From positions 4,812,412 to 4,876,411 of the forward strand of contig NZ_CP132335.1 of assembly GCF_030758295.1 (NCBI RefSeq): DNA of 64,000 nt. Direction: 5' to 3'. The notes under the pieces were generated by a model. That model had not been told where the DNA came from and searched no databases. It saw only the letters and a list, made by a program, of their open reading frames with translations. This stretch comes from Pararhizobium sp. IMCC21322 (GTDB lineage Bacteria; Pseudomonadota; Alphaproteobacteria; Rhizobiales; GCA-2746425). The stretch's first letter is position 1. Each line of letters opens with the position of its first letter. Below, piece after piece: positions 6,622-24,332 of the stretch. A program made the position numbers and the translations under genes.

Positions 6622-6930
6622 TTAGCGGGAAGCTGTCAAATACAGGATGTAGCCATAGGCCGCGGCCGAAGCCAAAAGGGCCATTACCAATAAAATAGCG
6701 ACAACCCAGCCCAGTCCGGTAAGCAGTTTTCGTCTGGGCGTACCCTCCGTGCAAAAAGGCATGATGTTGAACACCAGACCACCACAGATAACCCCAAGGC
6801 ACCCGATGGAAAACAGGGTCAGGGAAAATGGCTGGAACACGAAGATCAATGACAGGATGCAAAGCCCGAGAATGGCAAAACGATAATTACGGGCTTCGCG
6901 CGCGCCCATCAGCGCTGGATTGTCACTCAC
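6622..6930 (-). CDS. Small three-helix membrane protein ending the ABC operon
   Basis: A 102-residue protein I cannot name. The GTG start overlaps the stop of the upstream ATPase gene by four bases (GTGA), so it is the translationally coupled last gene of the operon. Three hydrophobic stretches are clear: FAILGLCILSLIFVF, LTLFSIGCLGVICGGLVFNI and LLTGLGWVVAILLVMALLA. A PFCTEGTPRRK loop lies between the second and third. Glycerol-type ABC importers carry a small DUF2160 membrane protein in a comparable place, but this sequence does not resemble DUF2160 as I know it. It may be an accessory subunit of the importer; that is inference from position only. Confidence 0.7.
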   Translation of the reverse strand: MSDNPALMGAREARNYRFAILGLCILSLIFVFQPFSLTLFSIGCLGVICGGLVFNIMPFCTEGTPRRKLLTGLGWVVAILLVMALLASAAAYGYILYLTASR

Positions 6931-8024
6931 ACTGTGTCTCCAATCCTGTTGCCATCGGCATGAAACAATCTGTAACTGCCCTGCGCAAACCGAACGTGAA
7001 TGGTTCCGCCTTCATTCAAACCCTGTCGGTCAGTCACGATAGCCCTGATCTGGCCTGCCGGATGCGCAATGCGCAGCAGCGTTTCAGCGCCCATCGGCTC
7101 AATCAATTCGCAAGTGCCGGACAGAATCCTCGGCCCGCTTTCACTCTCCAGGCTTGCGCTTCTTGGACGCATTCCCAATGTCACGGCATCACCAAGCTTA
7201 AGATAATGTCCGGGTTGCGCCAGTTCCCCGGTCAACTCGATTACATCCTGTCCAATTGAAACAGCTATTGCTCCACCAATTCCGGAGATGATGCCGCTCA
7301 CAAGGTTCATCTGCGGGGTGCCGATAAAACCGGCGACGAACGTATTCGCAGGATTGTTGAACACATCCTGCGGCGCGCCAATCTGCTCAACTTTGCCGTC
7401 CCGCATGACCGCAATTCTGTCTCCCATGGTCATGGCTTCCAGTTGATCATGCGTGACAATCACTGTGGGACGCGACAGACCAGAAAGGACTTTTTTGATG
7501 TCGCTGCGCATCTCCTCGCGCAATTGCACATCCAGACGACTGAGCGGTTCATCAAACAGAAAGCAGTTTGGACGGCGAATGATGCAGCGCCCGACCGAAA
7601 CCCGCTGTTTTTCACCTTCCGAAAGCTGATGGGGAAAGCGGTCCAGCACATGATCCATTTGCAGCACTTGCGCAATGTCACGCAACTTCGCCGCAATATC
7701 CGCAGAGCTGTCGCCTTCGGCATGCAGCGGATAAGCCAGATTATCGCTCACCGTCAAGTTCGGATAAAGCGCGTAGAACTGAAAGGCCATCGCTACATTG
7801 CGCGCGCGCGCAGGCAAATGGGTCATGTCCTGACCACTCAGATAGATCTCACCATCTGTTGCGTTTTCAAGGCCGGCAATCATCCGCAAAGTTGTGGTTT
7901 TACCGCACCCGGATGGCCCCAGCAGGCACAGCACTTCATCATCGGCAACATCAAATGTGACAGCATCCACTGCCGTCAGATCACCAAACTGCTTGGTTAT
8001 GTTTTTCAGCGAAATTCCACTCAT
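6927..8024 (-). CDS. ABC importer ATPase B (degenerate signature, intact H-loop)
   Basis: A 365-residue MalK/UgpC-type ATPase with a C-terminal TOBE domain, driving solute import. Walker A is GPSGCGKT at 36-43, Walker B is CFLFDEP at 154-160, and the switch histidine is in THDQLEAM at about 191-198. The signature is LSEGEKQR, not LSGGQ. The ATG overlaps the upstream permease stop (ATGA). The same operon encodes a second, different ATPase (11342-12415) whose defects are complementary, so the importer probably uses a heterodimer with one good and one poor ATP site. The substrate is not readable from the sequence. Confidence 0.92.
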   Translation of the reverse strand: MSGISLKNITKQFGDLTAVDAVTFDVADDEVLCLLGPSGCGKTTTLRMIAGLENATDGEIYLSGQDMTHLPARARNVAMAFQFYALYPNLTVSDNLAYPLHAEGDSSADIAAKLRDIAQVLQMDHVLDRFPHQLSEGEKQRVSVGRCIIRRPNCFLFDEPLSRLDVQLREEMRSDIKKVLSGLSRPTVIVTHDQLEAMTMGDRIAVMRDGKVEQIGAPQDVFNNPANTFVAGFIGTPQMNLVSGIISGIGGAIAVSIGQDVIELTGELAQPGHYLKLGDAVTLGMRPRSASLESESGPRILSGTCELIEPMGAETLLRIAHPAGQIRAIVTDRQGLNEGGTIHVRFAQGSYRLFHADGNRIGDTV

Positions 8025-8896
8025 TTGCGGATGGTCCCGAATGTAACGCCGCGCAGCAATTGTTTTTGCAGGACAAAGGTGACGATGAAAACAGGTATCA
8101 AGAACAGGCTGACAATGGCAGACAGCAGGCCCCAGTCGACGCCAATTTCACCCCCGATTGTGTTGGCCATGGCCACGGGAACCGTGCGGGTGTCAGAGCC
8201 GGTCAACAACAGGGCAAACAGGAATTCATTCCAGGTGAGAATAAGCGCAAACACTGCCGTTGCGGCCAGCCCGGCCAGAACCTGGGGCAGGCAAATCCGG
8301 AAAAAGACTTTCCAGTCGTTTGATCCATCCAATCGTGCGCTGTCCTCGATCTCCGGATTGAGATCATCAAAAAAGCTTTTCATCATCCAGATGGAGAACG
8401 GCAGATTGAACGCCGTATAAAGCAGAATAATACCAATATAACTGCCCGACAGACCGGTAACACGGAACATCAGAAAGATCGGGATGATGACCACAATCGG
8501 CGGCAACATCCGTGTCGTCAGAATGATGAACATGTAAGTGTCATTGCCCTTGAGCGGATAGCGCGAAAAAGCATAGGCAGCCAGTGTGCCGATGATAAGT
8601 GCCAGGATCACGCTGCTTCCGCCGATAAAGGCTGAATTGACAAAATATTGAACAAAGCCCGTGGCAACGGCGTCGCCCGCCTGGGTATCGCGGAAAAACA
8701 CGGATTTGAAATTATCAAATGTCGGTGTGAAAAACAGCTTTGGCGGAATGGCCAGCGCATCGGAGCGCGTCTTGAACGCAGTCAGGATCATCCACAGGAC
8801 CGGAAAGAAGTAGATCAGCGCAATGACACCCGTCACCAGACTATAGAGCCAACCGGCTTGGCCCGGCTTGCGGAAAGGAGCTTTGCGATATGCCAT
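8021..8896 (-). CDS. ABC sugar-type importer permease (MalG-like)
   Basis: A 291-residue inner-membrane subunit with six hydrophobic segments. The coupling loop, which contacts the ATPase, carries the EAA-type motif in EIEDSARLDGSNDWKVFFRICLP. The C-terminus (LLRGVTFGTIRK) is typical of MalG-like subunits of the carbohydrate uptake CUT1 family. The gene starts two bases after the preceding permease stop and its own stop overlaps the ATPase B start, so it sits in the middle of a coupled operon. It should pair with the permease at 8899-9816. Confidence 0.92.
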   Translation of the reverse strand: MAYRKAPFRKPGQAGWLYSLVTGVIALIYFFPVLWMILTAFKTRSDALAIPPKLFFTPTFDNFKSVFFRDTQAGDAVATGFVQYFVNSAFIGGSSVILALIIGTLAAYAFSRYPLKGNDTYMFIILTTRMLPPIVVIIPIFLMFRVTGLSGSYIGIILLYTAFNLPFSIWMMKSFFDDLNPEIEDSARLDGSNDWKVFFRICLPQVLAGLAATAVFALILTWNEFLFALLLTGSDTRTVPVAMANTIGGEIGVDWGLLSAIVSLFLIPVFIVTFVLQKQLLRGVTFGTIRK

Positions 8897-8898
8897 GA

Positions 8899-9816
8899 TC
8901 AGCCCTCCTCATTGCGCCGGTTGACGATGTAGAGATAAATGCTCGTCAGCACGATCACGACAAACAGGATCAGATAGGCCAATGCGGATGCCTGACTGGT
9001 TCTGAAGAACTGAAAGCCCAACCGGTAAGCATAAATTGCAACCGTTTCAGTTGACGCGCCGGGACCACCTCCGGTGATCAAAAAAGACAGGTCAAACAGC
9101 TTGAAGGTTTCAATCGTCCGAAACAAAAGCGCCAACAGTAAAAGGCTCTTGATGTAAGGGAATGTGATTGTTCGAAAGCGCCGCCACGGCGATGCCCGGT
9201 CAATTTCGGCAGCTTCATAAAGATATGTCGGCACCGACACCAAACCGGCCAGCACCAGCAACATGACAAACGGTGACCACATCCATGCATCTGCGATTAC
9301 GATGGCTGCAATGGAACCTGCCGGTGTGGCCAACAGAATAAACGGCTCGCCGGTGAAAAGCCCAATGGCCCAACTCAACAATCCCAGCGTGGGATCATAA
9401 AACAGTTTGAAAAAGATCGCGACGGATACGAAAGACAGCATCATTGGCGCCAGCACAAGCATCAGCAAAATGCGACGTAACGGAAATGTCTTGGCAAACA
9501 GCAATGCCAGCAAAAATCCAAAGATCAGTTGCAGCGTTACGGAAGCACCGACGATGATACCCGTCGTTTGAAAGCGTTCCCAGACCACAGGGTCGGTTAG
9601 CACCTTCTCGTAATTATCGAGCCCCTTGAAGGAAGGGACGGTCAGCCGATTGGCCCGGTAGTTGAAAAAGCTCAATCCGAAAGACCACAGAAGCGGAAAA
9701 ATATTCATCACGAACAATGTGATAAGAGCAGGCGCGACCAATAAAGGGCCGCGCCGCTCAGGCGCGTTCAACCAGGCTAACAAGCCACCAGATCTGGATG
9801 GGTTGAGATCAACCAT
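8899..9816 (-). CDS. ABC sugar-type importer permease (MalF-like)
   Basis: A 305-residue CUT1 permease with six membrane segments. The EAA loop reads YEAAEIDRASPWRRFRTITFP. I chose the ATG at 9816 because AAGGAG lies 9 bases upstream; the in-frame ATG at 9837 has no such site and would put the ribosome site inside the gene. It lies 27 bases after the solute-binding protein gene and 2 bases before the second permease. It should form the membrane channel with that partner. Confidence 0.9.
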   Translation of the reverse strand: MVDLNPSRSGGLLAWLNAPERRGPLLVAPALITLFVMNIFPLLWSFGLSFFNYRANRLTVPSFKGLDNYEKVLTDPVVWERFQTTGIIVGASVTLQLIFGFLLALLFAKTFPLRRILLMLVLAPMMLSFVSVAIFFKLFYDPTLGLLSWAIGLFTGEPFILLATPAGSIAAIVIADAWMWSPFVMLLVLAGLVSVPTYLYEAAEIDRASPWRRFRTITFPYIKSLLLLALLFRTIETFKLFDLSFLITGGGPGASTETVAIYAYRLGFQFFRTSQASALAYLILFVVIVLTSIYLYIVNRRNEEG

Positions 9817-9843
9817 GGCAGAACGCTCCTTCGTCATTTCAGA

Positions 9844-11316
9844 TCAATCTTCGATCCGACCGGCGTCACGCAGCAACTCATCCTGGAATGCAGCTACATT
9901 ATCCAGAGCTTCCTGTGCGGAAATCTGACCGGTGATGGCTTTGTCAAACTCCTCCTGCTGCTGTGTCAGCAACTCAAAGAATTCAGGCACGTGCCACAGA
10001 TCTTTCTGCCACTCCAGCATCGCCTTGTGCTGTGCATTCCAGGGTGCCCAGCTCTCATAGTCCGGGTTGTTCAGCACGCTGACCAGGCCCGATTGTCCGC
10101 CAGCTTTGACCGCAGCAATCTGGGTCTCTTCCGACAACCACCATTTCACCACATCAAGCGCTTCCTTGATGATTTCATCATCATTCCACGTGGTCAGAAC
10201 AAAAGGTTGTCCGCCCAGATTACCGGTCCGATCCATCTTGCCATCGCGCATATTGCCTGGTGGCACCGCAAAAGCGGCACGGTCATGAACCTTGGATGTG
10301 GCCGAATCGATAACAGGGGCTCCCAAAGCAACCCAGTCAACAATGGCTGCGATTTTGCCCTGCATGAACAGATCCTGGATTTCAAAAATACCCATCTGAC
10401 CTGTTTTGGCGATTGGCGGTGCATATTCCAGCAAATCAAGGAAGCGTTGGAACCCTTCCACATTCTCAGCTGAGTTTACAACGCCCAGTGCCGGGGAATT
10501 CGGCTGCGTAGTTTCATCCCAGATGCCACCACCAAATTGCCAGAAAAACGCATTGATCTGCATGGTTGAGAAATCAAGCGGTTTGGCTGCCTGATAAGCG
10601 ATCCCATAGAAGTCACCATCGGCAGTCCCACTGCCAAGCTTCTCGCCGCTTTTGCGGGCAAAATGCTTTCCGAAATTCTCCCAATCATCCCAGGTAATGC
10701 TTTCCCAATCATCGGGATTACAAGGCAGATCGCTTCCATAAGCAGCCTTGAAAGTGGCATGCTCACCTTCATCACAGAACAGATCAGTTCGGTAATAGGT
10801 CACATAAGTGTCAGGGAATTGCGGGAAGCCATAGTAATTCGCATCCGGATGCGGATAGCCGGTTTTCTCAATTTCAGCGGCAGCGACATTCGGATAAGTC
10901 GAGTAGCCAGAGACCAAAGCCGGGTGCAGATTGTTCATGATGGCCTGCAATCCCGGATCGGCTGCAATCAGATCATTGAGCTTCAGGAAGTGGCCACTTT
11001 CAATGAACGTTCCCAGCCACTGACTGTCAGAGACAATCATCTGGTATTTCTGCTCGCCGGAATTGAGCGATGCATTCACCCGGTCAAAAAAGTTCGGCCA
11101 TGGAATGAAATCAATTTCGAGCTGAACATTGTTGCCAGACGGTGCCTTGTAAGTCGCATTTGCATGCTCCTGCATAAAGCGCGTTGGGCCCCAGTCAGGT
11201 GCAGCCATGCGGATTGTAATATCCTTGGCCCAGGCACTTTCGGCAACCAGAAACGGGGCTGCAGTCAGCGCCAGAACCGACAGGGTTCTCTTCAGTGTCA
11301 TTCGCTTGTGTTCCAT
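9844..11316 (-). CDS. ABC importer solute-binding protein, 490 aa
   Basis: A periplasmic binding protein of the extracellular SBP family 1 type, which delivers solute to the permeases. A Sec signal peptide is clear: basic MEHKRMTLKR, then a hydrophobic core ending in ESAWA. The mature protein has long family segments such as YQMIVSDSQWLGTF and FWQFGGGIWDETTQ. Two cysteines about 20 residues apart (FCDEGE and LPCNPD) could form a disulfide. I take the second of two adjacent ATGs (11316), five bases after GGAGG; 11319 is nearly as good. At 490 residues it is longer than most sugar-binding proteins, as in the glycerol and polyol importer group. Confidence 0.9.
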   Translation of the reverse strand: MEHKRMTLKRTLSVLALTAAPFLVAESAWAKDITIRMAAPDWGPTRFMQEHANATYKAPSGNNVQLEIDFIPWPNFFDRVNASLNSGEQKYQMIVSDSQWLGTFIESGHFLKLNDLIAADPGLQAIMNNLHPALVSGYSTYPNVAAAEIEKTGYPHPDANYYGFPQFPDTYVTYYRTDLFCDEGEHATFKAAYGSDLPCNPDDWESITWDDWENFGKHFARKSGEKLGSGTADGDFYGIAYQAAKPLDFSTMQINAFFWQFGGGIWDETTQPNSPALGVVNSAENVEGFQRFLDLLEYAPPIAKTGQMGIFEIQDLFMQGKIAAIVDWVALGAPVIDSATSKVHDRAAFAVPPGNMRDGKMDRTGNLGGQPFVLTTWNDDEIIKEALDVVKWWLSEETQIAAVKAGGQSGLVSVLNNPDYESWAPWNAQHKAMLEWQKDLWHVPEFFELLTQQQEEFDKAITGQISAQEALDNVAAFQDELLRDAGRIED

Positions 11317-11341
11317 CATATCCTCCCTAAGTTGATGGCAG

Positions 11342-12415
11342 TCAGTTTTGAACGGGCGGCATATCAAGGCGCAACCCGGTCGTGGTGTCGAAGTACAAAA
11401 GGCGATCGGCGTCGAAATTCAGCGGTAGAAGATCGCCAGGCTTTGCCTGACCGACGTGTGCCCCTCTAAGGGCAACCTTCAGTTCATTTCCCGAAGTTTC
11501 GACATCGACAATTTCCAGATCACCAAGGGGTTCGGTCACAATGACCTTTCCGTGCAGAAGTGCGGTCTCGGCACTCTCTGCAACCTGAATATCAAAGGGC
11601 CTCAACCCCAATGTGAGTGCACCCTGGGCGCGATGATCAGACGGGATTTTTGCAAATCCCAGATCAAGTTCCACGCCGCTGCCTGTCGCCTCGATGAGGT
11701 TGATCGGCGGAGAGCCGACCAAACGCGCAACGCCAATGGAACCGGGCGTTGCATAAAGCGCATCAGGCGTGCCAATTTCACTGATCTGACCATTTTGCAA
11801 AACACCAATCGTGTCGGCCATGGTCATGGCTTCCAGCTGATCCGGCGTTGCGTAGACCATGGTGATGCCAAGATCCCGGTGCAGCCGTTTGAACTCAGCG
11901 CGCATCTCGTCACGCAGCTTTGCGTCCAGATTGGTCAATGGCTCATCCAGCAACAGCAGTTTGGGCTGTCGGATTAACGCCCTGCCAATGGCAACACGCT
12001 GTTGCTCTCCACCGGATAATTGTGTGGTCTTTCGACCCAGCGCATGGCTGATGCGCAGCAGCTCTCCCATTTCCCCCACGCGAGATTTAATCTCCGCAGA
12101 TGGCAGTCCGGCTTCACGCAGCGGATAGGCAAGATTCTGTTCGGTCGACAAATGCGGATAAAGGGCAAAGGATTGAAAAACCATCGCCAGATCGCGCCCC
12201 TGAACCGGTGCCTGTGTCACGTCCTGCCCATCGACAAATACGGTGCCGCGATCCGGTCTTTCCAAGCCACAGATCGTTCGCAAACAAGTTGTCTTGCCAG
12301 CCGCACTCGGCCCCAGAAGCGCAAAAAACGCACCCTCCGGAACATCAAAGCTCAGGCCATCAAGCGCTGTTACGCGGCCAAAGTTTTTCTCAAGTGATTG
12401 GCAAGACAGTTTCAC
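11342..12415 (-). CDS. ABC importer ATPase A (H-loop histidine replaced by proline)
   Basis: A 357-residue MalK-type ATPase with TOBE domain. Walker A is GPSAAGKT at 35-42, the signature LSGGEQQR at 133-140 is intact, and Walker B is LLLLDEP at 153-159. The switch region reads TPDQLEAM at 190-197, with Pro191 where the catalytic histidine normally sits. The start is the GTG at 12415, with AGGAGG six to seven bases upstream inside the end of the Tm-1-like gene; the ATG there would hit a stop at once. In a heterodimer with ATPase B this subunit would supply the good signature while its own ATP site would be crippled. Confidence 0.9.
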   Translation of the reverse strand: MKLSCQSLEKNFGRVTALDGLSFDVPEGAFFALLGPSAAGKTTCLRTICGLERPDRGTVFVDGQDVTQAPVQGRDLAMVFQSFALYPHLSTEQNLAYPLREAGLPSAEIKSRVGEMGELLRISHALGRKTTQLSGGEQQRVAIGRALIRQPKLLLLDEPLTNLDAKLRDEMRAEFKRLHRDLGITMVYATPDQLEAMTMADTIGVLQNGQISEIGTPDALYATPGSIGVARLVGSPPINLIEATGSGVELDLGFAKIPSDHRAQGALTLGLRPFDIQVAESAETALLHGKVIVTEPLGDLEIVDVETSGNELKVALRGAHVGQAKPGDLLPLNFDADRLLYFDTTTGLRLDMPPVQN

Positions 12416-12416
12416 C

Positions 12417-13643
12417 TCATGCCTCCTGCCTGGTCGCAATCAGGGCAAGCAAGGCATCCACAGCCTGATCGACAAAAACCGTGTCTTCTGCACCCGCATC
12501 AATCTCGGTCACCTCATGGGAAACATGCTTGTGCAAAGCGGCAATCAAGCGCGCATCAGCCTCTTTGTCTTCCAGGGGGCCACCTGGAACGGAATAACTG
12601 GACAGACCCCTGGTCGGCACCAGAACGCGCGTCGGCCCTTTTGCGCCGCGCAAGCGGTCGCCAATCGTCTTGGCCAATTGCTCCAACTCTTCACCAGATG
12701 TGCGCGGCACCAGAATGACCGGGTTATGAAATGTCACTTTCCGGTCTGCATACTTCTCCGGAATACTGTTCGGCTCATCTACCAGTATGCCCAGATGATC
12801 GGTGCCACCTGGCACAACCACCTGCGGCAGACCCAAGGCGCCCGCAACCGTCAATCGGTCCTTATCAGCTGCACGGATACCGCCGCCGATCTCATCCATC
12901 AAATCCCCGAGAGCGAAATCAAAAACGGCTTGAATAATGCCATCACGCATCAATTGCTCCATGGCACGACCGCCAGAGCCAACAGCGTGAAACACCATGG
13001 TTTCAAAGCCCTGATCAGACAGGCGCTTCATGGCGTGGATAGTGCCCTGTGTCAGAACCCCAAGATTGGTCATCCCGATGACCGGTTTGCCGGGCGTAAA
13101 GCTGATTGGCTTGGTTGCGTCAGCCATGCCAACAATGGCACCGGCAGCATTGGATAAAATTGTCCGGAAGAAAGGGTTCAAACCCAGAATATCACTGACC
13201 GAGAACATCATGGTGATGTCTTTGATGCCGACATAACCGGATGTGTCACCGGACGCCATGGTCGACAGCATCAGTTTCGGAAATCCATATGGCAGAGCTT
13301 GCATGACTTGCGTGCAATTGCCTGTGCCCTGTGTCCCGCCAAGGCTGATGACACCATCCACGTCGCCTGATCCGATAAGCCCAAGCATTTTGGCAATTGC
13401 ACCCCGGACCATCACCTCGGAAGCCACTTCCCGGGAAGGCGCGACGCGCAGACTGGTCAAAGACGTGCCGCCCGCATCAGCCACTTCGGCAGCGCTGATA
13501 TCGGCCGTCAGATCAGCATCACCCACCACACTTATGTCAATCAGATAGGGCGTGGCCCCAAGGCGGGTGATCTCATCCCTCAGATAGGCGCATTCATCGC
13601 CCTTGGTATCCAGTGTCGCAAGAATGGCAATTGTCTTGGTCAT
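12417..13643 (-). CDS. Tm-1-like ATP-binding protein (UPF0261)
   Basis: A 408-residue protein of the UPF0261 family, homologous to the N-terminal ATP-binding half of the tomato Tm-1 resistance protein. Recognisable pieces are the start IAILATLDTKGDECAYLRD, the central glycine-rich SLGGTQGTGNCTQVMQALP, the ADATKPISFTPGKPVIGMTN segment, and LVPTRGLSSYSVPGGPLED near the C-terminus. No enzymatic reaction is firmly established for the bacterial proteins. The ATG at 13643 lies just after the stop of the TIM-barrel gene; the ORF could also start at the overlapping GTG 13655. The adjacent gene encodes the other half of the plant protein, implying the two act together. Confidence 0.88.
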   Translation of the reverse strand: MTKTIAILATLDTKGDECAYLRDEITRLGATPYLIDISVVGDADLTADISAAEVADAGGTSLTSLRVAPSREVASEVMVRGAIAKMLGLIGSGDVDGVISLGGTQGTGNCTQVMQALPYGFPKLMLSTMASGDTSGYVGIKDITMMFSVSDILGLNPFFRTILSNAAGAIVGMADATKPISFTPGKPVIGMTNLGVLTQGTIHAMKRLSDQGFETMVFHAVGSGGRAMEQLMRDGIIQAVFDFALGDLMDEIGGGIRAADKDRLTVAGALGLPQVVVPGGTDHLGILVDEPNSIPEKYADRKVTFHNPVILVPRTSGEELEQLAKTIGDRLRGAKGPTRVLVPTRGLSSYSVPGGPLEDKEADARLIAALHKHVSHEVTEIDAGAEDTVFVDQAVDALLALIATRQEA

Positions 13644-13651
13644 TGGTCTTC

Positions 13652-14512
13652 TCACGAATTGAATGTCAGAGAGGTGAATTCAGCGGCGGCAGCAGTGACC
13701 GCGCGTTCAATGGGAAGACGCTCGGTCGAGGACCCGGTCCAGAACCCATCGCCTGATGTATGATCAAGCATGTATTGCGCGTCTTCCGGTGTCTCCATGG
13801 CCGCGCCATGACCAACCAGAATGATGTTTGGATCAATCTTGCGAATGGCCTGATAGACGTCTTCAGTTTCGCGCGCTGTTTCGGCAATGGTGACACCATT
13901 GTCGTAACCGGTGCGGCCGCCCTTCGTGGTTCCGGCGTGGTAGCAGAATATGTGGGGCCGTGCGCCTTCGACCAGTTCCAGCGCGTCATCCTTGGTGAAG
14001 GTCAGGCCAATCGTCACCATGCCCATTTCTTCACGGGCCAGTTTCAACATGTCTATTTCGTTCTGAAGCGTGATGCCGGCACTGGTCAGGACATTGAAGA
14101 TCTCGCTATCCTTGTCGACATAGCTGATGGAAGGGCCGATGTTGGAGACAGAATTCACCCCCATCGCCAGGCAATCATTCAGCACCATGCGCATATCGCG
14201 CAACGGGTCATTGGCATTCAGGCAGGCGCAGACAAAGGACTGACCCTTCAAGGCAGGCATGATGTCCTCTCGGGTATACGTCAGGGTCTGATGATTGCTG
14301 TCCAGGATCGGCCACATCATTGACATGGTGCCCATTCCATTGGCCCGAAGCCGCGCGCCGGAAAAAGTATTGATGCAATCAACACCGGATTCTTCAAGGA
14401 TTTTCGCCACAAGGCCACTCCCCGCACTGGCGATCATGATGGGTTTTTTTGCAGCCCGTTTTGCTTGCAGTTTTTCAAGAATGGCCTCAGTGGAAATACG
14501 TTTGGTAATCAT
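13652..14512 (-). CDS. PEP-hydrolase-like TIM-barrel protein
   Basis: A 286-residue protein of the phosphoenolpyruvate hydrolase-like TIM-barrel family, related to PEP mutase/isocitrate lyase folds. Characteristic stretches are PIMIASAGSGLVAKILEESG near 24-43, NTFSGARLRANGMGTMSMM, GPSISYVDKDSEIFN, and the C-terminal HGAAMETPEDAQYMLDH with GFWTGSSTERLP. In plants this domain forms the C-terminal half of Tm-1. The reaction is unknown for most members. The gene lies 11 bases after the alpha/beta hydrolase and its stop abuts the Tm-1-like gene, so all three are expressed together with the importer. Confidence 0.87.
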   Translation of the reverse strand: MITKRISTEAILEKLQAKRAAKKPIMIASAGSGLVAKILEESGVDCINTFSGARLRANGMGTMSMMWPILDSNHQTLTYTREDIMPALKGQSFVCACLNANDPLRDMRMVLNDCLAMGVNSVSNIGPSISYVDKDSEIFNVLTSAGITLQNEIDMLKLAREEMGMVTIGLTFTKDDALELVEGARPHIFCYHAGTTKGGRTGYDNGVTIAETARETEDVYQAIRKIDPNIILVGHGAAMETPEDAQYMLDHTSGDGFWTGSSTERLPIERAVTAAAAEFTSLTFNS

Positions 14513-14523
14513 GACGAACCTCT

Positions 14524-15357
14524 TCAGGATGAATGAGCCAGCGCAGTGCTGTGCGCTGAAAGAAAGGAATGAAAATGCGTCAGCAGCGCCGCACCGTGAG
14601 CCTCAGCTTCCAGATAGCGCGGTGGCAAATGGGCATAACGACCCTTTGGCAATGAGCCTGCGATAATACGTGCAATGCGGGGCGGATGAAGCGGGTCTGC
14701 ATTGTTGCCAAGAACAAGCGCCGGACAGTTGATACCCGCCAAATCCTCAAGTCTGCCAAACGGTTGATCATCGACGAGTTCGGACAGAACATTGGGATTT
14801 TCGCTAATCTGTCGATGCTTTGCAGCATTCAACACAGAATCTGCAGCAGAGGGAATACCGGAAAACAACTCTTGAAATTCAGCATCACCGGCCAAAGCTT
14901 TGGCGGCTTTTTCCGGTGTTGTCTCGCCCAGAAGCCTGCCCAGTTGCGCAATCACATTCAAATGCGGTCTGGCAGGTTGCGCCAACCATGCAGGCCGAAC
15001 CAGGAACAGCCCAAGAGCGCGCTTTGGTTGCGCCAAAGCCATATGCAGCGCAATTCCAGAACCCATGGAAATGCCGCCCAGAATGGCCCGGTCAATGTTG
15101 AGGTGGTTCAGGAGGGAGAGCGCGATCCGGCTGTAAATTTCAAAGCCTGTCAGGTCACTGGAAGGACCACCCGCATTTGCATGGGTCTCACCATGGCCGG
15201 GCATATCAAGCGTGATCAGTTGATTGTTGTTTTCGGAGGCGAGCGTTTGTTGAGCCTGGCCGCGCTCAGCAGCCAGACCGTGCATAAACAGCACTGCAGG
15301 ACCTTCTCCGGACACATCATAATGCACGGATAGGCCTTCAAATATGAAAACCGGCAT
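14524..15357 (-). CDS. Alpha/beta-fold hydrolase, first gene of the ABC operon
   Basis: A 277-residue serine hydrolase. The nucleophile elbow is GISMGSG at 95-101 (Ser97), preceded by the oxyanion-hole segment FMHGLAAERG and the DMPGHGET loop. A likely acid is the aspartate in GNNADPLHP, and a likely histidine is in EAEAHGAALL. No signal peptide is present, so it is cytoplasmic. A strong GGGAGG site precedes the ATG. Its position ahead of an importer suggests that an ester, lactone or amide bond in the imported compound, or in a breakdown product, is cut. The family covers esterases, enol-lactonases and C-C hydrolases, so the reaction is open. Confidence 0.88.
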   Translation of the reverse strand: MPVFIFEGLSVHYDVSGEGPAVLFMHGLAAERGQAQQTLASENNNQLITLDMPGHGETHANAGGPSSDLTGFEIYSRIALSLLNHLNIDRAILGGISMGSGIALHMALAQPKRALGLFLVRPAWLAQPARPHLNVIAQLGRLLGETTPEKAAKALAGDAEFQELFSGIPSAADSVLNAAKHRQISENPNVLSELVDDQPFGRLEDLAGINCPALVLGNNADPLHPPRIARIIAGSLPKGRYAHLPPRYLEAEAHGAALLTHFHSFLSAHSTALAHSS

Positions 15358-15451: not shown

Positions 15452-16216
15452 TTATCGCTCATTAGCGCCAGATTGCCATACCTGCCGATACCGTCGTGGC
15501 GGCATGCCAAAAAAGCCACGAAACTGCTTTGTGAAGTAGCTCTGATCGCAATAGCCACACTTCAGAGCGATGCGTACAAGCGGCATATCAGTAGAAGACA
15601 GGAGCTTTGCAGCCCGTTGCAACCGGGCTCGCAGAATGAATTCCTGCGGCGAAAGTCGAAAAAGAGCGCGAAACCGTTTCCGAAACTGGCTCTCGGAAAG
15701 GCATGATATTCGCGATAAGTCACTGATACTTATCGTACTATCAATACCGTCCTGAATATGTTGCATGACAGCCTGAAACGGTTGATAGGCTTGCGGTAAA
15801 TCATCCAACCGGTGCAAGACCTGCGTGGTTCCAACCAACCCGGCAACGCAATTATCTTTCCCAACAAGTGGCGTCTTGCTGGTCGAAACCCAGGTTAACA
15901 AACCCGCCTCGTCCACAATCAACTCTGTACGGTTTATAATTTTACGATTATTGCGGATAACGTCCAGATCATCGGCACGGATTGCATCAGCAATGATCTT
16001 GGGGAAAAAATCATGCTCCACCGCTCCGTAGACTTCTGAAACACTTGCAAAGTTGAGCAGTCGCAAACTGGCCTGGTTACAGGTGATCCAGCGCGAATTG
16101 GCATCTTTGATATAGAATAAGATGTCCGGCAGATTATCAAAGACATCCATGACCCACGGTTGCTCGTGCAACTGGGAAAAGAATTTCGAGACGGCCTTTG
16201 ACATGAGCATCGGCAT
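15452..16216 (-). CDS. AraC-family regulator with N-terminal PAS-like domain
   Basis: A 254-residue transcription factor. Residues of about 20-130 look like a PAS sensor (DILFYIKDANSRWITCNQAS, later TELIVDEAGLLTWVSTSKTP). The C-terminal 100 residues carry two AraC-type helix-turn-helix motifs (SISDLSRISCLSESQFRKRF and PLVRIALKCGYCDQSYFTKQF, ending GMPPRRYRQ). I chose ATG 16216 because GGAGGTG lies about five bases upstream; the ORF is open back to 16234. It sits 94 bases upstream of the Tm-1/ABC operon on the same strand, so it is a good candidate for that operon's regulator. It could equally be the last gene of the polyol operon. Confidence 0.88.
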   Translation of the reverse strand: MPMLMSKAVSKFFSQLHEQPWVMDVFDNLPDILFYIKDANSRWITCNQASLRLLNFASVSEVYGAVEHDFFPKIIADAIRADDLDVIRNNRKIINRTELIVDEAGLLTWVSTSKTPLVGKDNCVAGLVGTTQVLHRLDDLPQAYQPFQAVMQHIQDGIDSTISISDLSRISCLSESQFRKRFRALFRLSPQEFILRARLQRAAKLLSSTDMPLVRIALKCGYCDQSYFTKQFRGFFGMPPRRYRQVWQSGANER

Positions 16217-16402
16217 TTTCACCTCCACAAGCACTCTGTCGAAACAGGTCTGATGAGTGTGACAGATTTCGACAGAACGCCAAAGGGGTCAAGAAGATCT
16301 ATGATGTGCGTCAACACCATCCTTGGTCTTTGCCAGTTCCGGCCCAGTTACACGTGCGCCGCGCCTGTTCCCGGGACTTTATTCTTGGCTCCCTGTATGA
16401 CT

Positions 16403-17335
16403 TCAGATTTTCAAATCAGCAGCGCCCGTATCGATGTGAGGCGCCCAAAAGGCGACAGATTCTGCAATGTGGGGCACGACTTCGCGATCATTGGGTTCCC
16501 TTTCCTTGAATGACAGTTCCAGACAGATTTCATTATCGGTCGCACCGCCTTCGGCAAACGCAGCCAGCAATGGTTCCGGTTGAATCCGGCCCTTGGCATT
16601 AAACTCCGCAATGAACGGGCGGTGCCCACCCTTATCCATCAGGGATTGCTTGATATGAATGATCGGAGATATCTGCGGCACAGCCCGAGCCCAGGCATAT
16701 GGATCAAAATCATCCGGATTGGCACTGGTGACATCGCCATGATCAATATCGGCCATCATCCACATCGGGATTGCCATCTCCGCCTTGGTCAGTTGATCCT
16801 GCAATGCCAACGATGCTGAAATGGTCTCACCGAATTCTCGCCCGACGGACATCGGCTCCCAGAACAGGAACGAAAGGCCGGCGCGCTTGGCGTGTTCGGC
16901 CACCTCCGCCCAACATTCAATGGCAATTTGAATCAAGTCTTCCCGGCGCTTTAACTCATCAAAATCCTTGAAGGTAAAGATCGCGAACTGCGTGCCAAGC
17001 GATGTGCCACCCAGATCCCCAATGATATCTGCGAAGGTTTTGAACCAATCGATATAATAGCGGCGCACATCCGCATCCGGGTGGCCAAAATGATTCAGCC
17101 GCCCGTAAGGTCCGGTCATTCCACTGGTCACCCGCGCACCAGTGCGTTGCAAGGCCCCGTCCATTTGCTTTGTCAGCCGGTTGATGACAAGCGCAGACCA
17201 GCTAGGATTGATGAACTCATGGGTGAGCTGGATATCCCGCAACTTGATGTCACGGGCAATTGTCTCAACCAGATCATCGGGTTCCGCAAACCGATTTACC
17301 AGCGGGTTCGTGTTGAGTGAAAGCGTCAATCCCAT
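16403..17335 (-). CDS. EryC-like xylose-isomerase-type TIM-barrel isomerase
   Basis: A 310-residue AP-endonuclease-2/xylose-isomerase-like TIM barrel. Likely metal-binding acids and histidines are in LTHEFINPSW, LFWEPMSVG, MMADIDHGDV, IIHIKQS and EICLELSF. Length and sequence resemble EryC of erythritol catabolism, a tetrulose-4-phosphate isomerase/epimerase, but I judge this from memory of the family and not from an alignment. The start is ATG 17335, 13 bases after the HAD stop; the longer ORF upstream has low-complexity out-of-frame character. As last gene of the operon it probably interconverts the ketose or ketose phosphate produced by the dehydrogenase and kinase. Confidence 0.78.
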   Translation of the reverse strand: MGLTLSLNTNPLVNRFAEPDDLVETIARDIKLRDIQLTHEFINPSWSALVINRLTKQMDGALQRTGARVTSGMTGPYGRLNHFGHPDADVRRYYIDWFKTFADIIGDLGGTSLGTQFAIFTFKDFDELKRREDLIQIAIECWAEVAEHAKRAGLSFLFWEPMSVGREFGETISASLALQDQLTKAEMAIPMWMMADIDHGDVTSANPDDFDPYAWARAVPQISPIIHIKQSLMDKGGHRPFIAEFNAKGRIQPEPLLAAFAEGGATDNEICLELSFKEREPNDREVVPHIAESVAFWAPHIDTGAADLKI

Positions 17336-17348
17336 AGGTCTGGTCCTG

Positions 17349-18188
17349 TCAGAATGCGAAGCGGGACAGTAGAAAGTCAGGTCGGGCTTTGTGCCAGACG
17401 CAAATGGCTTGAAGGCCTGCAATCGTTTCGCCCTCATGAATGCCAGTGCGAACAAGGGCTGTGGCACAGCCTGCATCCCGGCCACCCCGAATATCGTGTT
17501 CAGGACTGTCCCCGATGCACAGCACTTTGGAGGGCAGTGGCTTGCCAAGCTTTTTAAGGGCAATCTGATAAATCGGCGGATGCGGCTTGCCGAACCACGC
17601 GACCTGACCGCCCAGCTCCTCATAGAGCTTTGCTATGCGCCCTGCCCCATACATTGGGCCGGCTTTTGTCAGCATGGTCTTGTCCGGATTGGTGCACCAG
17701 CACGGCACCAATCGGTCCGCTGCAATTTTGAGCAGAGCTTCATAGTGCTCCAGCTTGTATTGCTCCGCCTCGCTGCCGGCAATCAGCAACAAATCAGCTT
17801 CATCGATTTGATCGGTCAGCAACAGATCGAGCCCGTCAATGGCCGAGCGGTCTCCATCGCGTGCAATGAGAAAAACTCTGGCACCATGGGGCAGCGTCTT
17901 GCCAACGGCCTCCTGCAAGGCAAAATGCGCAGCTTCGCCTGAGGACAGAACGCCCAAAAATGCATCCCGCGCAAAACCCCGTTGAGCCAGCCTGTGTTCA
18001 TTTGGGGTTGAGCGCTTGCCCGAATTGGAGAGCAGCAAAATAGGTTTGCCAAGCCCTGCCAATTTCGCCAGGGCTTCAGGTGCACCGGGGTAGACAACGG
18101 GCCCGTTGAGAAGCACGCCAAACTGGTCAATCAGAAAGGCATCAAAATTCTCTGCCACATCTTTCAAATCCACTTCACGAAATGCCAT
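17349..18188 (-). CDS. HAD-superfamily class IIA hydrolase (TIGR01459-like)
   Basis: A 279-residue HAD phosphatase-fold protein with a class IIA cap. Motif I is FLIDQFGVLLNG near residue 20; the nucleophile aspartate is present, but the usual second aspartate of DxD is a phenylalanine, as in the DxWGV variants of this family. Motif II is ILLLSNSGKR, motif III the lysine in WFGKPHPPIY, and motif IV GDSPEHDIRGG. ATG 18188 follows GAGGTG and overlaps the FGGY kinase stop by 14 bases, so translation is coupled. A role in removing unwanted sugar phosphates fits this position, but the substrate is unknown. Confidence 0.85.
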   Translation of the reverse strand: MAFREVDLKDVAENFDAFLIDQFGVLLNGPVVYPGAPEALAKLAGLGKPILLLSNSGKRSTPNEHRLAQRGFARDAFLGVLSSGEAAHFALQEAVGKTLPHGARVFLIARDGDRSAIDGLDLLLTDQIDEADLLLIAGSEAEQYKLEHYEALLKIAADRLVPCWCTNPDKTMLTKAGPMYGAGRIAKLYEELGGQVAWFGKPHPPIYQIALKKLGKPLPSKVLCIGDSPEHDIRGGRDAGCATALVRTGIHEGETIAGLQAICVWHKARPDFLLSRFAF

Positions 18189-19449
18189 AAGCACCTCGCC
18201 TGGCCAGAAGCGCTGTACCAAAAGCAGCTTCCAGGCTTTTGGCAGCCAGAAACCGAACGCTCAATCGGCGTTCCCGAATTCGGCGCCACACAGCATTCTG
18301 TGCCCCGCCACCAACGCTGCGCAAACTGCGAAGCGCAGGTCCACCAAGCTCGGTCAAGCGCGAAAACCCTAGGGCCTCAATCGCAGATATGCCTTCAAGC
18401 ATTCCTTGCAGGAAATTAGCATCATTTGCAGGACGAGGCGTCAATCTGGGAGGGAGTGACGGATCGGAAATGGGAAAGCGTTCCCCGGCTTTGCTGAGCG
18501 GGTAATAATCAAGATCGATTGAAATCTCAGGGTTAATCTCAGCGCTTAAATCCATAATTTGCTGCGGTGTGAAAAAACCCAGAAGCACATTGCCACCGCT
18601 GTTGGAAGCGCCACCAGCAAGCCATTGATCGCCCAACCGATGGCTGTAGATGCCATATTCAGGTGCAAAAATCGGTTTGTCCGAGAGTATCTTGAGGGTG
18701 AGCGTCGTGCCGAGTGCGGTCACACCATCGCCAACGACTGCAGCACCGGTTGCCAGAAAAGACGCGCAGCCATCTGTTGTGCCCGTGATAATTTGACAGG
18801 AACCTGGCAGGGAAAAACGAGCAGAAATATCTTCGGATATCGGACCAACCAGCGTGCCCGCTGGCAAGACATCTGGAAGCAATGACACTGGCAAGCCGGT
18901 CTCACCCACCCAGTCTGGCCAACACCGTTCAACCGGATCGTAACCGGTTTTCAGAGCGTTGTTTTCATCGCTGACAAACTGTCCGGACAATCGGAATGAT
19001 ATCCAGTCTGCCTGGTGGAGAATTTTGTAGGCTTCATGATCCTGCGCCAGTTGCAGAGCCCGCGCAAGGCCACTGGAAGCACCATGAACCGCGCTGGTCT
19101 CAGGCGCGAGCTGCCCAATGCGTTTGAGCAATTCCTGATCCGTGCATGGATCATTATACATCAGCGCATCAGCCAAAGGCACACCATCTGGATTGACAGC
19201 AAGAAGCGTTCCCGACGTTCCGTCAATCGCAAGTCCTGCAACGCATGAGGGATCGATCTGAGCCAGTGCATTGTCCAGGGTCAATTGAAATGCGCGCCAC
19301 CAGATGTGCGGATCACGGCCATTAGCGCCGATAGAAGCAAAGGCTGTTTTAGCGTGGGCCTGCTCCACCCCCCGCGCATCAATGATGCTGACGCGTACTC
19401 CAGATGTGCCGAAATCAACTCCGATAAACAGAGCTTTTTCTTCAGGCAT
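18175..19449 (-). CDS. FGGY carbohydrate kinase, short SePSK-like type
   Basis: A 424-residue sugar kinase. FIGVDFGTSGVRVS at the N-terminus is the phosphate-binding loop, AIDGTSGTLLAV holds the catalytic region, GTTDGCAS the second-domain nucleotide loop, and SVGGGAQNAVWRR the adenosine motif. The chain is shorter than xylulokinase (about 480-500) and resembles the D-ribulose/D-xylulose-type kinase SePSK of cyanobacteria and plants. It overlaps the aldolase by eight bases and the HAD gene by 14. It probably phosphorylates the ketose made by the xylitol-type dehydrogenase. It is clearly different from the second FGGY kinase at 29416-30906. Confidence 0.88.
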   Translation of the reverse strand: MPEEKALFIGVDFGTSGVRVSIIDARGVEQAHAKTAFASIGANGRDPHIWWRAFQLTLDNALAQIDPSCVAGLAIDGTSGTLLAVNPDGVPLADALMYNDPCTDQELLKRIGQLAPETSAVHGASSGLARALQLAQDHEAYKILHQADWISFRLSGQFVSDENNALKTGYDPVERCWPDWVGETGLPVSLLPDVLPAGTLVGPISEDISARFSLPGSCQIITGTTDGCASFLATGAAVVGDGVTALGTTLTLKILSDKPIFAPEYGIYSHRLGDQWLAGGASNSGGNVLLGFFTPQQIMDLSAEINPEISIDLDYYPLSKAGERFPISDPSLPPRLTPRPANDANFLQGMLEGISAIEALGFSRLTELGGPALRSLRSVGGGAQNAVWRRIRERRLSVRFLAAKSLEAAFGTALLARRGAYGIS

Positions 19450-20464
19450 TCATCTGTTGCCGGTAGGTTTCAGCATCCCAATCCAGCAATTCATAATCCT
19501 GCGCTTGGGTGAAATAATTCAGCTTGGCAGTTGCTGGAACCCGGACCATAACGTCCGACAGGCACCGGGTCATGGTGCGCCCGTTTTCAGTAATATCCTT
19601 GCGCCATAAAACGCCTGCATCAGGCACAATCAGGAAATGAGGTTTTGTTTCGGCTCGGACACAATAAGCATCGGCTGTTTCACCCGGACGGGTTGCATGG
19701 GCGCCAATACCACAAAAAATCACATGATCCGGGTAGAGCGTTCCACCAATCGCCTGCTCGATACGCGCGCTTGTCATGGCAAGTTGATGAACCTGGTCAT
19801 CCGGCTCGGCCGGTTCAAAATATGCGCCAGCCGCATCCTGCAACCGCGCCAGATCTACAGGCTGTTCCGGCGCGGCATCGGCGTGAAGCGCAGAACTGAC
19901 CTGTTCAATTAACCCGGCAGCTTCTTCAACAGTATCACCCGCCACAAGCAAACCGTGATTGCCAAGAATAATTACCTCAACCGTTTCGTTCAGCGCCTTA
20001 CGAACCAGCTTCGCCAATTGCGCACCCGGCTTTGCATAATCCACATAGGCCCAGTTGAAAGCCGTCAGTCTCGTGCTCAGTTCGGTAACAGCATCTGTCC
20101 TGATCGCCAGCGCAATAGTGTTGACACAGTGGACATGCAAAACGACACGCTTGGGAAAAGCCGCATGCAGGCAGGTCTCAATTGAAGGCTTCAGACCGCC
20201 AGCCTGCAGCAGATAACGCTGTGGCTCATCGGCGCGCTCGGGATGCGCTGCAGTTTCTTCAATCATGGTGGTCAGATCGACCGGGACAAATATGTCTTTA
20301 TCCAATGCTTCGGAAAGCTGGGTGCCGGACGCCTTGATCCACATCACACCATCTTCCTTGATCGACGTATTGCCGCCAGCCCCCTGAACCATCAGCGGGT
20401 TACTGCCAAATTTACGCGACCATGTCCTCAACAAGGGCAGGTCATGGGGGTCAGCACGTGTCAT
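19442..20464 (-). CDS. Class II aldolase/adducin-family protein
   Basis: A 340-residue zinc-dependent aldolase-fold protein. The phosphate-binding loop GAGGNTSIKEDGVMWIKASGT is near residues 29-49. The metal and catalytic residues lie in SIETCLHAAF (Glu), HVHCVNTIA (HxH) and GNHGLLVAGD (third His). Fuculose- or rhamnulose-phosphate aldolases are usually about 215-275 residues, so this has an extra C-terminal domain of about 90. It would cleave a ketose 1-phosphate to DHAP and an aldehyde. It sits between the dehydrogenase and the kinase in the operon; overlap with the kinase suggests coupled synthesis. Confidence 0.85.
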   Translation of the reverse strand: MTRADPHDLPLLRTWSRKFGSNPLMVQGAGGNTSIKEDGVMWIKASGTQLSEALDKDIFVPVDLTTMIEETAAHPERADEPQRYLLQAGGLKPSIETCLHAAFPKRVVLHVHCVNTIALAIRTDAVTELSTRLTAFNWAYVDYAKPGAQLAKLVRKALNETVEVIILGNHGLLVAGDTVEEAAGLIEQVSSALHADAAPEQPVDLARLQDAAGAYFEPAEPDDQVHQLAMTSARIEQAIGGTLYPDHVIFCGIGAHATRPGETADAYCVRAETKPHFLIVPDAGVLWRKDITENGRTMTRCLSDVMVRVPATAKLNYFTQAQDYELLDWDAETYRQQMNA

Positions 20465-20519: not shown

Positions 20520-21560
20520 TCAGCTTTTCAATTTTATCTGTATTTTCACATCAGTCGGGCGCGCCTCGACAGCCCGGTCAAATGCCTCAACACTGTTTTT
20601 AAACGCGAATGTTTCTGAAATCAGCGGCTTGAGGTCAACCTTGCCCGATGCGATCAGATTGATGGCACGATCATAAATATTGCCATAGCGAAACACCGTC
20701 TCGATGCGAATTTCTTTCGCCTGTGCCGACACGATGTCAAACGGCACCGGATCAACCGGCATCCCCACAAGCACCAGACAACCGCCAGGACGAATAGCGG
20801 CCAATGCGGTCTTGTAGGCAGGCCCTGCACCGGAACACTCCAGCACAACATCGACACCCCAATTCGCTGTCTCCTTTGCGATAACCGAGGCAACATCCTG
20901 CTTGGCTGCATTGATCGGTTCAATTCCGTCATATTGAGCGGCCACGCCCAGTTTTTCGTCCACGAGATCTGAAATGAAAACTTTGGCACAGCCCCCGGCC
21001 AATGCTGCCAAAGCAGTCATGATGCCGATGGGTCCTGCACCAATAACCAATGCAATATCGCCGGGTTTGATGGCAGCTTTCGCTGCGGACTGCATACCAA
21101 TTGCAAACGGTTCCACCATGGCACCTTCAGCCATGCTGACGTGATCTGGCAATTTGTAGGTAAAGGCTGCGGGATGAACCACTTCGGGCGTCAGGCAGCC
21201 ATGAATGGGCGGCGTTGCCCAAAACGTAACAGCAGGGTCCACATTATAAAGCCCCAGCTTTGATGCCCGTGATGATGGATCGGGAATTCCAGGTTCCATA
21301 CAGACACGATCACCGACAGCAAGGTTTGATACCGACGATCCGGTCTCAATCACCGTTCCGGCTGCTTCATGCCCCAGAACCATTGGTTCCTTCACAATGA
21401 AGGGGCCGATCTTTCCATGGGTATAATAGTGAACGTCGCTTCCGCAAACACCGACCGTATCAATGGCAATCCGCACATCCTGTGCGCCCATTGCCTGGTC
21501 CAGATCAATATCACGAATCTGAATTCGGTTTTTTTCTTCCAGAACAAGAGCTTTTGGCAT
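20520..21560 (-). CDS. Xylitol dehydrogenase-like zinc alcohol dehydrogenase
   Basis: A 346-residue medium-chain dehydrogenase that should oxidise a polyol to a ketose with NAD+. Catalytic zinc ligands are visible: [11 protein letters not shown] (Cys), LGHEAAG (His, Glu) and VEPFAIG (Glu). The Rossmann loop is [11 protein letters not shown], followed by ISDLVDEK, whose aspartate favours NAD+. The structural-zinc cysteines are absent ([19 protein letters not shown]), as in the rhizobial xylitol dehydrogenase group. It follows the ABC ATPase by only two bases. Xylitol, arabitol, sorbitol or a tetritol are all possible substrates. Confidence 0.88.
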
Positions 21561-21562
21561 GA

Positions 21563-22636
21563 TTACATCTTTCGTTTAATGGCCTGGTCTGTTTGTGCGT
21601 CAAAAACGTGGACATAATCAACAATTGGTTCCAACGAAACAACTTCATCAGCTTTCCAATTCATGCGTTCACGTGAGATCGCGCAAACATCGTGGCCTGA
21701 CAAATGACAGAACAGATGTGTTTCCGGTCCGGTCGGCTCAACAACACTGATGGTCGCCTTCAAGCCGGTCTCGGACGGGATCAAATGTTCGGGTCGAATT
21801 CCGTAAAGAACTGTCTGACCCACGGTTACATCCAATTGGTCCGGGAGCGGAAGATGCAACTCGTTAACCCGGCAAACCATCTTGCCGCCCTCTTCAATAA
21901 TCTTGCCCTTCAGCAAGTTCATCCCGGGCGAGCCGATGAATTCGGCAACAAACAGATTGGATGGATTGTCATAAATCTCCATCGGCGTACCCATTTGCTC
22001 AATGTGGCCATCGCGCATGATCACCACTATATCAGCCATCGTCATGGCTTCAATCTGATCATGAGTTACATAGACGGTCGTTGTCTTCAGTCGCTGGTGC
22101 AGCTCTTTGATTTCGGTGCGCATCTGCACACGCAGCTTGGCATCCAGATTGGACAAGGGTTCGTCAAACAGAAACACATCAGGATCGCGCACAATCGCGC
22201 GGCCCATGGCGACACGTTGGCGCTGACCACCGGAAAGTTCTTTTGGATAGCGGTCGAGATAAGGTTCCAGGCTCAGAATGGAAGCTGCCCAGTTCACACG
22301 CTCTTCAATGCGCGCCTTTGGCGTTTTGCTGAGCTGCATGGAGAACGCCATATTGTCGCGGACTTTCATATGGGCGTAGAGCGCATAATTCTGAAATACC
22401 ATGGCAATATTGCGGTCTTTGGGATGCACGCCATTGACCCGGCGGTCACCAATGGAAATATCGCCTGAAGTGGATGATTCCAAACCGGCAATTGTCCGCA
22501 AAAGTGTGGATTTTCCACAACCGGACGGTCCAAGAAGAACGACGAACTGCCCATCTTCCACATCGAGATCGATGCTGTGCAGAACTTCCAGATCTCCGTA
22601 TTTCTTGACCAGTTTTTCTACTATTACCGATGCCAT
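21563..22636 (-). CDS. ABC polyol/sugar importer ATPase (UgpC/MsmK type)
   Basis: A 357-residue ATPase with TOBE domain. Walker [10 protein letters not shown] at 36-44, signature LSGGQRQR, Walker B VFLFDEP and H-loop THDQIEAM are all intact, so it can work as a homodimer. This contrasts with the mismatched pair in the 6.9-12.4 kb operon. It is separated from the binding-protein gene by about 120 bases holding a strong hairpin, and it leads directly into the dehydrogenase. It powers the importer made by the next three genes. Confidence 0.93.
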
Positions 22637-22704
22637 TTGTAGCCTCTGCGATATCCGCCATTTGCGGTCTTGATTGCCCTTTAAATCAAGGGCCTTTTGT
22701 AGAA

Positions 22705-22730
22705 GTCACCCGGCCATCAGGCCGGGTGAC
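22705..22730. repeat. Perfect 11-bp stem-loop between binding-protein and ATPase genes
   Basis: GTCACCCGGCC and its exact reverse complement flank a four-base loop (ATCA). It lies 26 bases downstream of the solute-binding protein stop, inside the operon, and has no T-run. In many importer operons a hairpin here protects the mRNA of the abundant binding protein and lowers expression of the next genes. That role is inferred. Confidence 0.7.
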
Positions 22731-22755
22731 AGTTTTCGACAGAAGGATCTAGCGC

Positions 22756-24282: not shown

Positions 24283-24332
24283 GGTATCCTCCAATGTTAG
24301 AGCCGTCATCCTGCACACCGCTTGGCATGCAG

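Follow-up and report, generated by a model that had tools for sequence, protein, structure and literature searches.

We consider it somewhat probable that two adjacent genes of Pararhizobium sp. IMCC21322, one for a UPF0261 protein and one for a PEP-hydrolase-like TIM barrel (PEPH), belong to a carbohydrate-type catabolic module in which UPF0261 would serve as an ATP-dependent kinase of the MarK/Tm-1 family and PEPH would act on the same small molecule. The module rests on gene content, conservation, adjacency, and the occurrence of UPF0261 in place of a known kinase in another pathway. In the pathway that we propose, an alpha/beta hydrolase would open a lactone or ester upstream, UPF0261 would phosphorylate the resulting small molecule with ATP, PEPH would act on that molecule before or after its phosphorylation (by isomerization or C-C bond cleavage), and class II or LsrF-type aldolases would then cleave the phosphorylated product. 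In Pararhizobium sp. IMCC21322, the adjacent importer may bring in the substrate. The neighboring genes, and these alone, suggest that the substrate is sugar- or polyol-like. "Carbohydrate-type kinase module" could thus serve as a working annotation for a family that Pfam still labels uncharacterized.

Gene layout of the window

The window is the whole stretch of 64,000 nucleotides that we analyzed. In agreement with an earlier note on this DNA, the UPF0261 gene (12417 to 13643) and the PEPH gene (13652 to 14512) have an alpha/beta hydrolase on one side and a complete ABC importer on the other. Both genes are on the minus strand, and the importer comprises five genes (6927 to 12439). Transcription runs through the hydrolase, PEPH, UPF0261, ATPase 1, the solute-binding protein, two permeases, and ATPase 2 (to 6927). 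The hydrolase (Abhydrolase_1; 14524 to 15357, minus strand), which lies beside the pair in alphaproteobacteria and is our candidate for the lactonase or esterase step, ends 11 bp before the start of PEPH, and the UPF0261 ATG start codon at 13643 (alternative GTG at 13655) is 8 bp past the PEPH stop codon at 13652. The importer genes, all on the minus strand, encode two ATPases, two permeases, and one solute-binding protein: ATPase 1 (UgpC/MalK-like; 11342 to 12439) overlaps the end of UPF0261, and it is followed by the solute-binding protein SBP_bac_1 (9844 to 11367, with the true start probably closer to 11319), permease 1 (8899 to 9837), permease 2 (8021 to 8896), and ATPase 2 (6927 to 8024).

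Upstream on the same minus strand are a PAS-AraC-type regulator (15452 to 16234), which is kept with the pair in alphaproteobacteria and Verrucomicrobia, a sugar-isomerase-like TIM barrel (AP_endonuc_2; 16403 to 17323), a HAD-IIA phosphatase (TIGR01459; 17349 to 18221), an FGGY-family sugar kinase (18175 to 19449), and a class II aldolase family protein (19442 to 20464), which recurs with the pair in alphaproteobacteria (homologues in L014-L016 and L019). Farther upstream on the same strand (20520 to 25223), adjoining the class II aldolase and FGGY kinase genes, are another sugar-type ABC importer and a polyol dehydrogenase of the zinc type.

Both members of the pair match their families over their full lengths. 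The UPF0261 protein (PF06792 and PF23189) scores 191 bits for the N domain and 205 bits for UPF0261_C in Pfam (cutoff, 27 each) and 404.6 bits for NCBIfam NF002674 (cutoff, 335), and PEPH, assigned by Pfam and by fold, scores 186.5 bits for PEP_hydrolase (PF09370; cutoff, 33.8). Structures have been solved for homologues of UPF0261 (Tm-1, 3wrw/3wrx/3wry; and 9mpy) and of PEPH (2p10). The alpha/beta hydrolase and the solute-binding protein have only distant solved relatives and so name no substrate.

Conserved neighborhood of window-type UPF0261

For UPF0261 of the type present in the window (type A), we compiled 80 named genome loci with 82 copies, from Alphaproteobacteria, Verrucomicrobia, Bacteroidota, Planctomycetota, one Actinomycetota MAG, and Klebsiella indica. 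Neighbors were counted within about 8.6 kb, and the controls were 20 arbitrarily placed stretches, a small sample that is alphaproteobacterial only. Phospho-aldolase genes lie near 58 of the 80 loci and near 0 of the 20 controls; among the 22 loci with no aldolase nearby are several short contigs, and absences on short metagenome contigs are weak evidence. LsrF- and RhaD-type aldolases need phosphorylated substrates. The recurrent companions of the pair are the hydrolase, the PAS-AraC regulator, and a bifunctional class II aldolase/short-chain dehydrogenase, joined in Verrucomicrobia by LsrF (425 bits; cutoff, 297) with an RPE-like epimerase and a dehydrogenase and in Alphaproteobacteria by an FGGY kinase, a HAD-IIA protein, and a class II aldolase. 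No kinase is found among the conserved neighbors annotated in the Verrucomicrobia and Bacteroidota modules. With aldolases for phosphorylated substrates beside UPF0261 and no annotated kinase among these neighbors, the simplest reading is that a kinase step by UPF0261 would precede the aldolase step. A counterpoint is that the alphaproteobacterial modules, including that of the window, already have the FGGY kinase.

The earlier note had taken the hydrolase and the importer together as a hint that the pair works on an imported compound. Our survey upheld one half of this neighborhood: the hydrolase is present in all nine alphaproteobacterial window-type loci, but the importer does not rise above background. 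ABC ATPases occur near 5 of 9 alphaproteobacterial and 2 of 71 other window-type loci, compared with 8 of 20 random alphaproteobacterial loci, and we therefore rejected the importer neighborhood as general evidence for the window type. An importer homologous to that of the window was found only in L011, a near-identical MAG, and in L016. It is thus possible, if on balance unlikely, that the importer and hydrolase came to lie next to the pair by chance, this genome being rich in transporters, and are uninformative about its substrate, an explanation that the ATPase counts and the two-locus distribution of the importer favor and that is compatible with our main one. The tight packing of the genes (gaps of 8 to 11 bp) and the retention of the hydrolase argue against it, as does the presence of a related two-ATPase importer, with a permease 44% identical to permease 1 of the window, next to another UPF0261-PEPH pair on Rhizobium pRL12. 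The proposed action on an imported compound therefore fares unevenly: the joint metabolic role that we infer fits the published kinase finding described below, and the importer argument is weak here. The stronger neighbor link is to the phospho-aldolases, which the earlier note did not include.

UPF0261 replaces a two-component kinase in otherwise matching clusters

A UPF0261 type without PEPH is carried on plasmids of the bisphenol-A degraders Pseudomonas putida YC-AE1 (L095), Sphingomonas bisphenolicum (pBAR1; L151), and Sphingobium yanoikuyae YC-JY1 (L152), where it precedes three carboxylase genes and the HAD phosphatase gene of the hydroxyphenylethanone pathway. This pathway opens with the dikinase HpeHI, and because its carboxylase takes only the phosphorylated substrate, it requires a kinase (PMC9618137). 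We found 10 clusters that share the BCCP-biotin carboxylase-carboxyltransferase-HAD core, the plasmid clusters through homology and hence not as a random sample. Five have UPF0261 and no HpeHI (L095, L150, L153, and L151 and L152, which are the same element counted as two), and five have HpeH and HpeI and no UPF0261 (L163, L164, L165, L167, and L168). None of the four plasmids tested contained PPDK_N, and in G565, the genome from which L150 comes, there is a single large PPDK-type frame. UPF0261 thus takes the place of the two-component kinase HpeHI in clusters that match in other respects, and it is from this exchange that the idea of UPF0261 as a kinase derives. As the UPF0261-bearing clusters form one clade in the carboxyltransferase tree, the exchange was probably a single event. 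The HpeHI/AcvAB dikinase is a functional analogue, opening a catabolic pathway in the position that UPF0261 takes; its fold, an ATP-grasp domain with a swivel domain, is unrelated to that of UPF0261 (PMC12167813).

The catabolic segments of L151, L152, and L095 contain genes for an RPE65-family dioxygenase, an aldehyde dehydrogenase, a thioesterase, BKACE, UPF0261, biotin carboxylase, and the HAD phosphatase, with pobA near the segment on pBAR1; as a set, these genes look like a pathway that converts hydroxyacetophenone to protocatechuate.

The kinase reading also agrees with a published finding. In a 2026 paper, MarK of Novosphingobium aromaticivorans is described as a single-component acetovanillone kinase, and PDB entry 9mpy, from the same organism, is a UPF0261 protein (Saro_1862) with bound acetovanillone; we infer that MarK and Saro_1862 are one protein. 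L095, L150, and L151 form a clade of their own with 9mpy (support, 100/100).

PEPH is the usual partner of window-type UPF0261

PEPH adjoins UPF0261 in 61 of the 82 window-type copies, as counted from domain positions, which is far beyond chance, and in 59 of these 61 pairs PEPH comes first and UPF0261 second. Loss of PEPH was considered for 16 loci of the Akkermansiaceae kind that have no local copy and was rejected, since all 16 genomes have PEPH elsewhere (15 above the cutoff). Window-type PEPH proteins are 64 to 82% identical across phyla, a level of conservation that suggests one constrained reaction. The structural model of PEPH (pLDDT, 89.5) matches 2p10 with TM scores of 0.87 to 0.92; 2p10 is Mll9387 of the PEP_hydrolase family, which has the fold of PEPH and itself bears only its depositors' tentative name. 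After its own family, the PEPH fold is nearest to the PEP mutase/isocitrate lyase superfamily, including 2-methylisocitrate lyase (TM score, ~0.6; identity, 11 to 16%), and these likenesses of the model make isomerization or C-C cleavage plausible.

So close an association raises the question of whether UPF0261 and PEPH form a single two-subunit enzyme, made up of an acceptor-binding TIM barrel and its ATP-binding partner, whose subunits became fused in the plant. The plant fusion and the co-evolution of the two families (PMC5028733), the frequency of adjacency, the presence of PEPH elsewhere in 16 of 16 tested Verrucomicrobia-type genomes without it in the locus (15 above the cutoff), and the precedent of HpeHI as a two-component kinase (PMC12167813) would all suit such an arrangement. 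Nevertheless, other UPF0261 types have no PEPH partner (L093, L095, L097, and 13 survey copies), MarK is described as single-component, and PEPH alone occurs in fusions with sigma54-type activators. On this evidence, we regard a single two-subunit enzyme as rather unlikely, and strict obligate pairing of UPF0261 with PEPH was rejected because of the types without PEPH.

Two loci, L020 (the Actinomycetota MAG) and L035 (Klebsiella indica), have two UPF0261-PEPH pairs close together, one of the window type and one of the type nearest to Tm-1.

The window copy lies outside the MarK clade

The window UPF0261 protein aligns to 9mpy over nearly its full length (E value, 4e-58) and keeps the charged residues that are invariant across UPF0261 types (D14, K16, E19, D38, K125, D144, R265, and H308), and it belongs to the same family as MarK if MarK is indeed Saro_1862. 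It is, however, only 33 to 35% identical to members of the MarK clade and falls outside that clade in the tree, so that it could use another substrate or even catalyze another reaction. The genomic setting differs as well. MarK clade members have no PEPH alongside and sit in the aromatic phospho-carboxylase pathway, whereas the window pair is not beside a phospho-phenylethanone carboxylase (a HAD-IIA gene is present, at 17349 to 18221), and a search of its own genome at an E value of 1e-90 returned no carboxyltransferase homologue, the aromatic phospho-carboxylase pathway being absent.

Window-type UPF0261 might accordingly have diverged from kinase chemistry and catalyze another reaction on a pathway intermediate, for example, as a ligase or lyase. 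Besides the low identity to the MarK clade, this is consistent with a Foldseek search in which the model of the window UPF0261 matched no known kinase fold beyond the Tm-1/9mpy family. We nonetheless hold such divergence to be improbable: the charged residues are invariant in all UPF0261 types, and in several phyla aldolases for phosphorylated substrates lie next door with no other kinase among the conserved neighbors. We therefore retain an ATP-dependent kinase as the preferred role for the window copy.

Relation of the window pair to plant Tm-1

The earlier note had matched the two genes to the two halves of the plant virus resistance protein Tm-1 and had read their adjacency as the Rosetta stone form of that fusion. 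The domain families and the conserved adjacency are borne out, but the link itself is not new. According to Yang et al. (2016, PMC5028733), the plant Tm-1 fusion arose when two bacterial gene families were acquired by horizontal transfer and then joined; they found UPF0261 in 491 of 504 bacterial genomes having the TIM barrel (~97% co-occurrence) and reported that the evolution of the two was correlated. Transporters are unmentioned in that text. A phylogenetic-profile study ranked the UPF0261/TIM-barrel pair in fungi too (PMC8963296).

Nor is the window pair the closest bacterial counterpart. Tm-1 clusters in the tree with a LivF-associated bacterial UPF0261 (type B; support, 98/95), and the window copy (type A) lies outside the clade holding Tm-1; over the same segment of Tm-1, type B is 46 to 52% identical and the window copy is 38% identical, the Tm-1 sequence used for both the tree and the identities being the aligned part only. 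The window pair as a direct bacterial counterpart of Tm-1 was rejected on this basis. Gene order tells the same way, as the plant fusion places UPF0261 before the TIM barrel, which is the usual order in type B, but the window has PEPH before UPF0261. Furthermore, the window genes are two open reading frames separated by a stop codon and not one polypeptide as in Tm-1-like proteins. In fold, the model of the window UPF0261 matches Tm-1 (3wrw) with a TM score of 0.83.

Tm-1-like proteins are encoded in nearly all sequenced land plant genomes, and their normal function is so far unclear. A report of attenuation involving UPF0261 in Brucella (PMC2364660) and one of a phage resistance single-nucleotide polymorphism near a Tm-1-like gene (PMC12733950) gave no mechanism. 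The window pair probably helps explain what relatives of Tm-1 normally do. Were the UPF0261 half a metabolic kinase whose molecule is also acted on by the barrel, Tm-1 would be a two-step metabolic enzyme of which the virus interaction takes advantage, and its substrate could be sought via bacterial operons.

Further UPF0261 copies, importer fusions, and types without PEPH

UPF0261 was present in 33 of 289 alphaproteobacterial genomes surveyed, and the genome of Pararhizobium sp. IMCC21322 has three paralogues (the window copy, L004, and L005). The gene at L004:8238-10490 (own genome C1, ~3.285 Mb), a type B copy, encodes a 750-residue protein with a LivF-type ABC ATPase domain and both UPF0261 domains in frame and is followed by PEPH; it lies in a branched-chain-type importer operon with an iron-type alcohol dehydrogenase and an aldehyde dehydrogenase, both named from sequence. 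Among 40 alphaproteobacterial UPF0261 copies read in context, with those of this genome included, 12 have an ABC ATPase fusion. The LivF-UPF0261 fusions other than L004 (L109, L110, L112, L113, L115-L120, and L127) lie in branched-chain-type importer operons with PEPH in the locus, and L111 and L130 have the unfused order LivF-UPF0261-PEPH. We tentatively suggest that the fused protein might belong to an importer in which the uptake of the cargo and its phosphorylation are coupled, making it the ABC counterpart of group translocation; such a system would point to the metabolic role that Tm-1 had ancestrally. The fusion makes phosphorylation-coupled ABC uptake a specific and testable claim.

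In L005, UPF0261 and PEPH adjoin a flavoprotein, and at L005:4300-6015 a PEPH domain heads a protein that resembles a sigma54-type activator in its C-terminal part; by similarity, PEPH also heads sigma54-type activators in L110, L113, and L118, in or near UPF0261-PEPH loci. This position suggests that PEPH binds the small molecule of the pathway. That the pair is instead a small-molecule sensing or signaling module, as these activators and the older name "TIM-barrel signal transduction" might imply, is very improbable, given the many invariant charged residues of stand-alone PEPH and UPF0261 and the location of the pair in catabolic operons with a PAS-AraC regulator of their own. The third UPF0261 gene of this genome lies head-to-head with a partial PEPH-like open reading frame of 215 amino acids (L005:9727-10374).

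A divergent UPF0261 without PEPH (L142:9355-11152) is part of a compact operon in which a sugar-type ABC importer comes first, UPF0261 second, and a class II aldolase third; nearby, in divergent orientation, is a set of genes for an FGGY kinase, a class II aldolase, and a HAD protein. On a Serratia plasmid (L099:12031-12492), a truncated UPF0261 of ~154 amino acids, probably a remnant, lies beside an IS6 transposase gene and an intact PEPH gene.
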